Below, piece after piece: positions 50,944 through 53,904 of a stretch of 64,000 bases of DNA. Below the pieces are notes generated by a model. It was not told where the DNA came from and did not search any database. It saw only the letters and a program-made list of their open reading frames with translations. The DNA comes from Swingsia samuiensis. Its GTDB lineage: Bacteria; Pseudomonadota; Alphaproteobacteria; Acetobacterales; Acetobacteraceae. Positions within the stretch are counted from its first letter, which is position 1; each line of letters begins with the position of its first letter. The stretch is from positions 277,501-341,500 of the forward strand of contig NZ_CP038141.1 in the NCBI RefSeq assembly GCF_006542355.1, read 5' to 3'. The position numbers and the translations under genes are program-made.

Positions 50944-51196
50944 CTTTTAAACTCTTGACTATGCTCGTCATGCAAAAAAGAACTCTTATCATCTCTTCAT
51001 ATTACTTTAATAGAAAGGCTCTATTTTAAAATAAATGTTTTTGTTGATTTTCTGCGAATTTTAACAAATTATTTTGTTCCACACCTTCCTAAGATGACTG
51101 CCTTTAGTCATACTTTGATAAAATATTCTTCCTTTGATTACTTTTTTAGTGATTGGGGATAATATTCATCATCTTTACATTAGAGTTGCTTGAGTT

Positions 51197-52282
51197 TTGA
51201 AGAAAATAACCTCTCTCTTTGCCAAAACCATTACTCAACATAGAAAAAAACTGCGTCTTTTTTCTATATGTCTTGTTGCTCTTCTCGGTATTGATACAGC
51301 CGCATGGCTTCTAACAACATCACACTTAAAAAAAGAAACCATTCACTTCCTTAACAATATAGATTCTGACGGATATAATGTTTCATTCTCTCATATAAAT
51401 GCCAAAGGCTGGCCATTCGGAGCATGGGTCGAACTCACAGCCCCACACATCAAACACATACATTCACCTAATATTCCCTTGGATATTGGCTGGCAGGGCG
51501 ACACTGTTCAAATTGGTGGGGCATGGCCAAGCCTGATTACCAGCACATTACATATCCACTTTAATAAACGACACGCTTTACGGTTTATCTCAGGCGACAA
51601 TCAGCTCACTCTTGTTCTGGATACTCTCAATTTAAAATATTCCCGCGCAAATACAGATATTTTATTTAATATACATTCATTGGAAGGTTCTTTTTATAGC
51701 CCTTCTCTTGAGCAACGGTTTTTGTCTCATCACCTCTTCGGACGAATAATCATCCCGTATAATGTAAAGCCCGGCCAAACTCGTGTAGGGGCCAACCTAT
51801 ATGCCTCCAACACACTGCTTCCTATTATAAATAAAACCTCTGTAGAGCTGGAAAACACTCACCTATCTATCGCCCTTAGTGCATCAAATATTGATGCGCC
51901 ACTCTTTAATCCAGATGCTTTTAAACGCCTCTTTATTCAAGATTTTTCAACATCCTTTGCTAACCTCCCCAGTTCCGCACGGATCAAAACTGCCGGGGTG
52001 CTAAGTTATCCCCAATGTAATGGCTCGCTTTTTGTTACCTTACTAAACTGGCAGGCTATGGCTCACAAAGCGTTAACTCTTCCTGTCTTGCAAAGCTCAA
52101 TAAGCCCAGACCTACAAAGTATCATTCAAAAAATGCTTCATACTCAACCATCATACTCTATATCCAATGCTCCTTTAACGGTTGAAATACCTTTGCAAAA
52201 TCACTCTTTCCCCCCTGAAATTATAAATCTTTTCCGTTTAATATCTTCAAAAAAAATTGACGTCTTATATCAACCTGAGTAG
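51197..52282 (+). CDS. DUF2125 domain protein
   Basis: A 361-aa envelope protein with TTG start at 51197, preceded by GAG-rich sequence about ten bases upstream. One membrane helix at ~21-40 (LFSICLVALLGIDTAAWLL) is followed by a periplasmic beta-rich body. GYNVSFSHINAKGWPFGAWVELTAPHI is the pattern of DUF2125, a common alphaproteobacterial family of unknown role. It stands between a 253-bp AT-rich spacer (no gene seen) and the cio operon, and is not clearly part of either neighbour. Confidence 0.8.
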   Translation: MKKITSLFAKTITQHRKKLRLFSICLVALLGIDTAAWLLTTSHLKKETIHFLNNIDSDGYNVSFSHINAKGWPFGAWVELTAPHIKHIHSPNIPLDIGWQGDTVQIGGAWPSLITSTLHIHFNKRHALRFISGDNQLTLVLDTLNLKYSRANTDILFNIHSLEGSFYSPSLEQRFLSHHLFGRIIIPYNVKPGQTRVGANLYASNTLLPIINKTSVELENTHLSIALSASNIDAPLFNPDAFKRLFIQDFSTSFANLPSSARIKTAGVLSYPQCNGSLFVTLLNWQAMAHKALTLPVLQSSISPDLQSIIQKMLHTQPSYSISNAPLTVEIPLQNHSFPPEIINLFRLISSKKIDVLYQPE

Positions 52283-52297
52283 AGAGTAATCAGTTAA

Positions 52298-52315
52298 ATT
52301 TGATATTTATCAAAT
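52298..52315. promoter_or_regulatory. FNR/FixK-type operator upstream of cioAB
   Basis: ATTTGATATTTATCAAAT is a perfect 8-2-8 palindrome, and its core TTGAT-ATTT-ATCAA (52300-52313) is the exact FNR/Anr/FixK consensus. It lies 171 bp before the cioA start and centres at 52306.5. I see no clear -10 at the spacing for class II activation, so whether it activates or represses is open. Confidence 0.7.
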
Positions 52316-52485
52316 GACTGTGATGAACATGGGTGCTCCCATTCATCATTTAAATCCCTCAATATGAAGGTATATTTTCATATATCTTCTTTTCTTCAAA
52401 CCTAAACGGCCTGAACGCAGAACGCAGGAACTTAATTGTTGCCCTTCTCGCTGCGCTCCGTCGTTAAAGCAGAAGGCGCTCCATA

Positions 52486-53904
52486 ATGTTTGGCCTGACG
52501 GCTTTATTTCTCGCGCGTTTTCAATTCGCCTTTACAGTCGGATTCCATATTGTGTTTCCGGCGTTTTCGATTGGACTAGCCGCTTATCTTGCAGTTCTTG
52601 AAGGGTTATGGCTCAAAACTGGCCGTAGCGCTTACCTAGATCTGTTTAAATATTGGTTAAAAATCTTCTCTATCGTGTTTGGTATGGGAGTGGTTTCTGG
52701 CCTTGTGATGTCCTACGAGTTTGGAACCAACTGGTCCCAATTCTCCCAAAAGGCAGGGCCAATCCTTGGGCCCATGCTCGCTTATGAAGTGATGACAGCC
52801 TTCTTCTTGGAAGCTGGTTTCTTAGGCGTCATGATGTTTGGCTTAAACCGTGTTGGTAAGGGCCTACATTTTGCATCAACATGCTTGGTCTCCATCGGAA
52901 CACTCATTTCCATGACGTGGATCCTTGCCTCCAACTCTTGGATGCAAACGCCACGCGGTTACATCATCGATAAAGCAACAGGCCGCTTCCTTCCGGGGGA
53001 TTGGCTGCAGATTATCTTTAACCCATCCTTCCCATATCGTTTGGTTCATATGGGCCTTGCAGCATTCCTATCGGTTGCGTTTGTCGTTGCAGGCGTTGCG
53101 AGCTGGCACTTCTTAAAAGCGCGCCGGGAAGGTCGTCAGGCGTCTGAACAAGTGCGTCTGATGTTTTCCATGGCAATGTGGATGGCAGCGATTGTATCCC
53201 CTATTCAGTTCATAGCGGGAGACACTCAAGGACTAAACACCCTTGAATATCAACCAGCCAAAGTTGCCGCTATGGAAGGCGACTGGGAATCTGAAGGCCG
53301 CGCACCTGAGATCCTGTTTGGTATTCCTGATATGGAACACGAAACAACTCATTACAAAGTGCAGATCCCTTTCCTTGGCTCCCTCATTCTTACTCATAGT
53401 CTTGATGGTAAGGTTCCTGGCCTCAAAGACTACCCGAAAGATATTCGCCCTTATTCACCACTCCTGTTCTTCTCTTTCCGTATCATGGTGGCCTTAGGCT
53501 GCTTGATGATTTTGGTTGGACTGTGGTCTCTATGGCTTCGGTGGAGAGGTCATCTCTACACGAATACTCTTCTGCAACGCCTTCTTATCCTCATGGCACC
53601 TTCTGGTTTCGTTGCATTGCTTTGCGGATGGACGACAACAGAAGTTGGACGACAACCCTATACCGTTTATGGGCTACTCAAAACGGCAGATAGTGTTTCT
53701 CCTATTTCTCTTCCCAATCTCGAAACATCCATGACTGCGTTTGTTATCGTCTATTTCATCATCTTTACGGCTGGAATAGTCGTGCTCCTACGTAGCTTTG
53801 CCCAAGAACCTCATAGCAATGAAGAGGGCCCTTCTGAGCATGAACCTCAGATGGCAGCGGGAACAACGCAAATTTCTCATCATCCACATCATTGGGCGGA
53901 GTAA
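52486..53904 (+). CDS. cioA: cyanide-insensitive bd-type quinol oxidase subunit I
   Basis: A 472-aa subunit holding the haem groups and quinol site of a bd oxidase, which transfers electrons from ubiquinol to oxygen. The N-terminal ARFQFAFTVGFHIVFPAFSIG contains the haem-b595 His; GLVMSYEFGTNW, EAGFLGVMMFG, and AGDTQGLNTLEYQPAKVAAMEGDW are conserved. The Q loop is short, the mark of the CIO branch rather than E. coli CydA. The C-terminal ~40 residues are polar and His-rich. An FNR-like palindrome is upstream; cioB begins seven bases downstream. Confidence 0.93.
   Translation: MFGLTALFLARFQFAFTVGFHIVFPAFSIGLAAYLAVLEGLWLKTGRSAYLDLFKYWLKIFSIVFGMGVVSGLVMSYEFGTNWSQFSQKAGPILGPMLAYEVMTAFFLEAGFLGVMMFGLNRVGKGLHFASTCLVSIGTLISMTWILASNSWMQTPRGYIIDKATGRFLPGDWLQIIFNPSFPYRLVHMGLAAFLSVAFVVAGVASWHFLKARREGRQASEQVRLMFSMAMWMAAIVSPIQFIAGDTQGLNTLEYQPAKVAAMEGDWESEGRAPEILFGIPDMEHETTHYKVQIPFLGSLILTHSLDGKVPGLKDYPKDIRPYSPLLFFSFRIMVALGCLMILVGLWSLWLRWRGHLYTNTLLQRLLILMAPSGFVALLCGWTTTEVGRQPYTVYGLLKTADSVSPISLPNLETSMTAFVIVYFIIFTAGIVVLLRSFAQEPHSNEEGPSEHEPQMAAGTTQISHHPHHWAE

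Follow-up and report, generated by a model that had tools for sequence, protein, structure and literature searches.

The window analysed here (the whole stretch of DNA presented above, 64 kb, G+C 44–47%) carries a perfect inverted repeat ahead of the genes for a bd-type oxidase, putatively of the cyanide-insensitive (CIO) subtype. The question raised by this locus is whether the repeat serves as an operator, for which protein, and in which direction. A sequence-only reading had proposed an FNR/FixK-type site and, with it, oxygen- or redox-responsive switching of the oxidase. Judging from motif, position and conservation, the palindrome is very probably the cioAB operator for the FNR-type regulator of the same genome, whichever direction that regulator takes.

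The repeat has an 8-2-8 layout, ATTTGATA-TT-TATCAAAT, with arms that are 100% complementary, and reads ATTTGATATTTATCAAAT as a whole (52298–52315). Within it, the core TTGATATTTATCAA (52300–52313) matches the FNR consensus TTGAT-N4-ATCAA exactly, and both features were present as the sequence-only reading had described them. The core starts 17 bases past the stop codon that ends at 52282, and from its first base to the cioA ATG (52486) the distance is 186 bases. The pattern TTGATNNNNATCAA has a single exact match in the window, namely this core at 52300–52313, and eight matches when up to one mismatch is allowed, against 4.08 expected. Three perfect 8-2-8 repeats occur in the window, compared with a simulated mean of 1.23 and a maximum of 5 over 30 simulations; palindromy by itself is unremarkable. 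The downstream genes were identified, as had been read from the sequence, as subunits I and II of a bd-type oxidase by PF01654 and PF02322, with subunit II also above the cut-off of TIGR00203 (Table 1). Subunit I scores far below two bd-I/bd-II equivalog cut-offs and is 82–85% identical to named Gluconobacter loci, for example that of G. oxydans NBRC 14819 (84%). The upstream open reading frame (51197–52282) gave no Pfam match. In addition, a stem of 12 pairs, lacking a T run, was observed just 3' of the palindrome (52320–52349; RNA fold -13.5 kcal/mol, z -3.06, with 2 of 200 shuffles folding as well), and it may serve to terminate the upstream gene or act as a second operator.

Table 1. Features of the cio promoter region and operon, in window coordinates.
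Feature	Position	Strand	Evidence
8-2-8 palindrome, proposed FNR/GoxR operator	52298..52315	.	inverted repeat and conserved footprint
Core TTGAT-N4-ATCAA	52300..52313; half-sites 52300-52304, 52309-52313	.	exact match; half-sites 94% identical in seven motif-selected representatives
Promoter-like hexamer pair, the sole one ahead of cioA; weak candidate	52349..52376	+	one hit; expectation from shuffles 1.2
cioA, bd-type oxidase subunit I, 472 aa	52486..53904	+	ORF; PF01654, E 8.8e-161
cioB, bd-type oxidase subunit II, 345 aa	53911..54948	+	ORF; PF02322, E 6.7e-96; TIGR00203 above cut-off

Across the whole genome (2,193,407 bases, two contigs), 11 exact TTGAT-N4-ATCAA sites were counted, while composition models built from the window expect 6.0 (Markov-1) or 6.8 (Markov-2). 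A reversed-pattern control returned a single site, which overstates the excess because the composition models expect 6.0–6.8; the count is modestly above chance, and its use as proof of an operator was dropped. What exceeds chance is the combination of motif, position and conservation in 23 of 25 genomes. When other promoters were searched for the motif, as the sequence-only reading had proposed, position added some weight: seven exact sites stand no more than 200 bases before an ORF start (L004, among these, also lies within a short doubtful ORF), one lacks a nearby start and three are inside long ORFs. The relaxed pattern TTGAY-N4-RTCAA occurs 18 times in the genome against four times in the reversed control, and real and reversed counts were 12 and 6 (G004), 9 and 2 (G006), and 13 and 3 (G011) in same-genus genomes; the same caution on reversed controls holds for these numbers. 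Eleven of the 18 relaxed sites lie within 300 bases ahead of a start, one has no start and six fall inside ORFs.

Shared targets were sought by BLASTP between site neighbourhoods in four genomes, covering 18 of 18 sites in the own genome (G000), 10 of 12 in G004, 8 of 9 in G006 and 12 of 13 in G011, with gene names assigned by eye. Besides cio and fnr, the recurring neighbours were pqqB/pqqC-like genes (G000, G004 and G006, the site lying within the first gene), a rho-like gene (G000 and G004), TonB/ExbD-like genes at differing positions (G000, G004 and G011), a regulator/efflux pair (G004 and G006) and distantly similar transporters; sites that fall within such genes may be coding coincidences. 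In G004 and G006, both of the same genus, the motif also precedes a PntA-like gene (L167 and L180); a search for this protein in the own genome returned no match, an empty result that is weak evidence. Furthermore, two exact sites separated by about 4.6 kb (L005 and L006) each precede a gene for a large protein, and the N-termini of the two proteins appear similar by eye.

Conservation of the cio site was followed by searching for cioA in 41 genomes (the own genome, 24 of the same genus and 16 of the same class) and by examining the promoters of the 25 own and same-genus genomes. TTGAY-N4-RTCAA was found at -186 to -217 of cioA in 23 of these 25, where simulation expects 0.05. The exceptions are G003, with one mismatch, and G007, in which the site is lost. 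G007 also encodes a second CioA homologue, which shares 70% identity with the query. Among named cio loci, 29 of 80 were examined: seven, from six Gluconobacter genomes and one Neokomagataea MAG, have TTGAT-N4-ATCAA, exact or with a single mismatch, between -192 and -217, and the other 22, G. morbifer included, have no site at that threshold. The named-locus and same-genus sets appear to consist in part of the same assemblies and are therefore not independent. As relatedness is a fair objection to such counts, seven chosen representatives were compared in register (21 pairs). The half-sites were 94% identical and the spacer 43%, in rows that were picked with the motif pattern, which favours half-site identity and is passed by 24 of the 25 promoters. 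Identity was 28% in the 60 bases upstream, 37% in the 60 bases downstream and 27% in the rest of the leader, with the highest downstream similarity between G006 and G010 (45 of 60). On this alignment, the half-sites persist while most of their surroundings drift.

A single protein with an HTH_Crp_2 domain is encoded in the genome, outside the window (240 aa, G000:C1:933649-934368). It matches PF00027, PF13545 and PF00325 above cut-off, corresponding to a cNMP-binding-like domain and a Crp-type HTH; two further proteins with a cNMP-binding domain (open frames of 490 and 859 aa) are not among the HTH_Crp_2 matches. Cysteines 14, 17, 25 and 113 are present in 25 of 25 own and same-genus orthologues, and we infer that they are the ligands of an iron-sulfur cluster. 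A fifth cysteine, at position 31, is found in just 21 of 25 and is therefore dispensable. The recognition helix reads E-T-(I/V)-S-R, the FNR-like E..SR, in 24 of the 25, the remaining orthologue being truncated before the helix. The lack of any CRP/FNR-family regulator had been named in the sequence-only reading as an outcome that would count against it; given this one regulator with FNR-type cysteines and the conserved site, that objection does not apply. Of its label "FNR/FixK-type", the first half fits better than the second because the cysteines are present. The best NCBIfam match of the regulator is FnrL (NF045989; 135.8 bits, below the curated cut-off of 300), and it scores below the cut-off of the curated Fnr model (228). 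It aligns over residues 14–221 with an FNR of known structure with the internal cysteine in register, whereas its N-terminal spacing is C-x2-C-x7-C instead of C-x2-C-x5-C, the third cysteine being shifted.

The regulator gene carries a like site of its own. TTGACTAATATCAA lies at G000:C1:933552-933565 (L094 1501-1514), 97 bases ahead of the regulator ATG, and TTGAY-N4-RTCAA precedes the regulator gene in all 25 own and same-genus genomes (0.035 expected). In the 16 genomes of other acetic-acid genera, which were reached through named loci, a regulator match was found in every case; by alignment, the best match has all four cysteines in each of the 16 and the fifth cysteine in none. An exact self-site within 350 bases upstream of the regulator occurs in 14 of these 16 genomes (0.01 expected), and the other two have one mismatch. 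In the cio loci examined from the same 16 genomes the site is missing even when one mismatch is allowed; these genomes may hold additional cio copies. With a self-site in the other genera and no cio site in the loci examined there, this pattern of presence and absence suggests that the self-site is old and that the cio site is specific to the Gluconobacter line, that is, a later recruitment. It is put forward tentatively, at a confidence falling a little short of half, that FNR gained control of the cio promoter only in the Gluconobacter–Neokomagataea line, where obligate aerobes reused a regulator familiar from anaerobiosis to pick an oxidase by oxygen level.

Taken as an operator for a GoxR/FNR orthologue, the site would bring cio under oxygen or redox control. 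At low oxygen, the regulator would hold a [4Fe-4S] cluster on C14, C17, C25 and C113; the cluster-bearing protein would dimerise and bind TTGAT-N4-ATCAA, and the bound dimer would change transcription of the quinol oxidase genes cioAB. Oxygen would destroy the cluster, upon which the regulator would leave the DNA, and the same protein would also bind the like site at its own promoter. Its binding and its oxygen response are deduced from family membership.

The direction of control is less firmly indicated. Class II promoters set the regulator site at a characteristic spacing from the -10 element; the hexamer at that place reads CTCCCA, and a consensus -10 was not found there. The doubt voiced in the sequence-only reading about the -10, and about possible repression, stands, and the sole promoter-like pair is at chance level. 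No -10 common to 24 aligned cio promoters was seen by eye. RNA-seq of G. oxydans describes, in the excerpt consulted, lax promoters with a -10 of nAtnnn (PMC5756330), and a missing consensus therefore tells little. Within the leader, 52396–52490 folds no better than shuffles (z -0.51), a search of 51000–53000 against Rfam gave no match with E of 1 or below, and a terminator-like scan of 52150–52600 found none. Activation of cio is slightly favoured over repression because, within the intergenic region, the site lies at the end away from cioA.

The opposite direction of the same operator, with site function unchanged, is possible, though less likely than not: at low oxygen the regulator would lower cioAB and pass electrons to another oxidase. 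Repression would agree with the absence of a consensus -10 at class II distance, with the repression of CIO by Anr in Pseudomonas putida (PMC3621253, in part) and with the low oxygen affinity ascribed to A. aceti CIOs in an excerpt of PMC9171043. It is opposed by the location of the site, far upstream in the intergenic region and ahead of the lone promoter-like match. In addition, the same P. putida paper states that the net effect of oxygen limitation there is induction of CIO (PMC3621253), and according to a review cioAB of P. aeruginosa is highly expressed at low oxygen (PMC12491237).

Binding of the site by another protein, with cio responding mainly to acid or a different signal, is improbable. 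In G. oxydans, acidification of the medium brings a switch from bo3 to the bd-type oxidase (PMC9171043), and a well-folding inverted repeat lies just 3' of the site (52320–52349); but the regulator's own promoter has the same half-sites, a second HTH_Crp_2 protein was not found in the genome, and the two additional cNMP-binding-domain proteins are not among the matches to that domain. In view of the takeover in acid, acid control may be added to control by the FNR-type regulator. A chance or neutral palindrome, or one forming part of the upstream gene's terminator, is very improbable: a count near composition expectation and a place 17 bases after a stop codon would suit it, but the conservation of the site in 23 of 25 genomes, amid flanks that have drifted, and the empty terminator-like scan argue against it.

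The FNR-type regulator invoked here has its closest known counterpart in G. oxydans 621H. There, GoxR (GOX0974) is described as the sole predicted CRP/FNR-superfamily protein and as an FNR-type iron-sulfur protein that regulates respiratory and redox genes (PMC9429829, PMC7567684). The regulator of the present genome is likely a GoxR orthologue: same-genus regulators are 63–76% identical to it, and orthology is drawn from there being one close match per same-genus genome, which in G017 is split into two pieces. The idea of FNR-type control in a bacterium described as strictly aerobic is supported as to site and regulator, and it is not new, GoxR having already been described (PMC9429829). As a GoxR target, cio is not named in the literature listings and abstract beginnings searched, and it may still be published as one; surprise is limited on both accounts.

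These results would place oxidase choice in acetic acid bacteria of industrial use under a single oxygen-sensing regulator, with an exact operator that can be altered, and suggest a lineage-specific rewiring that is open to comparison between Gluconobacter and Acetobacter. An FNR-type oxygen sensor also acts on a cyanide-insensitive oxidase in P. putida, where Anr represses it (PMC3621253, in part), whereas here FNR-type control of a bd-type oxidase is predicted from sequence. Set beside GoxR and Anr, the regulator is of a kind already described, and the cio site is a well-supported case of it rather than a new system.
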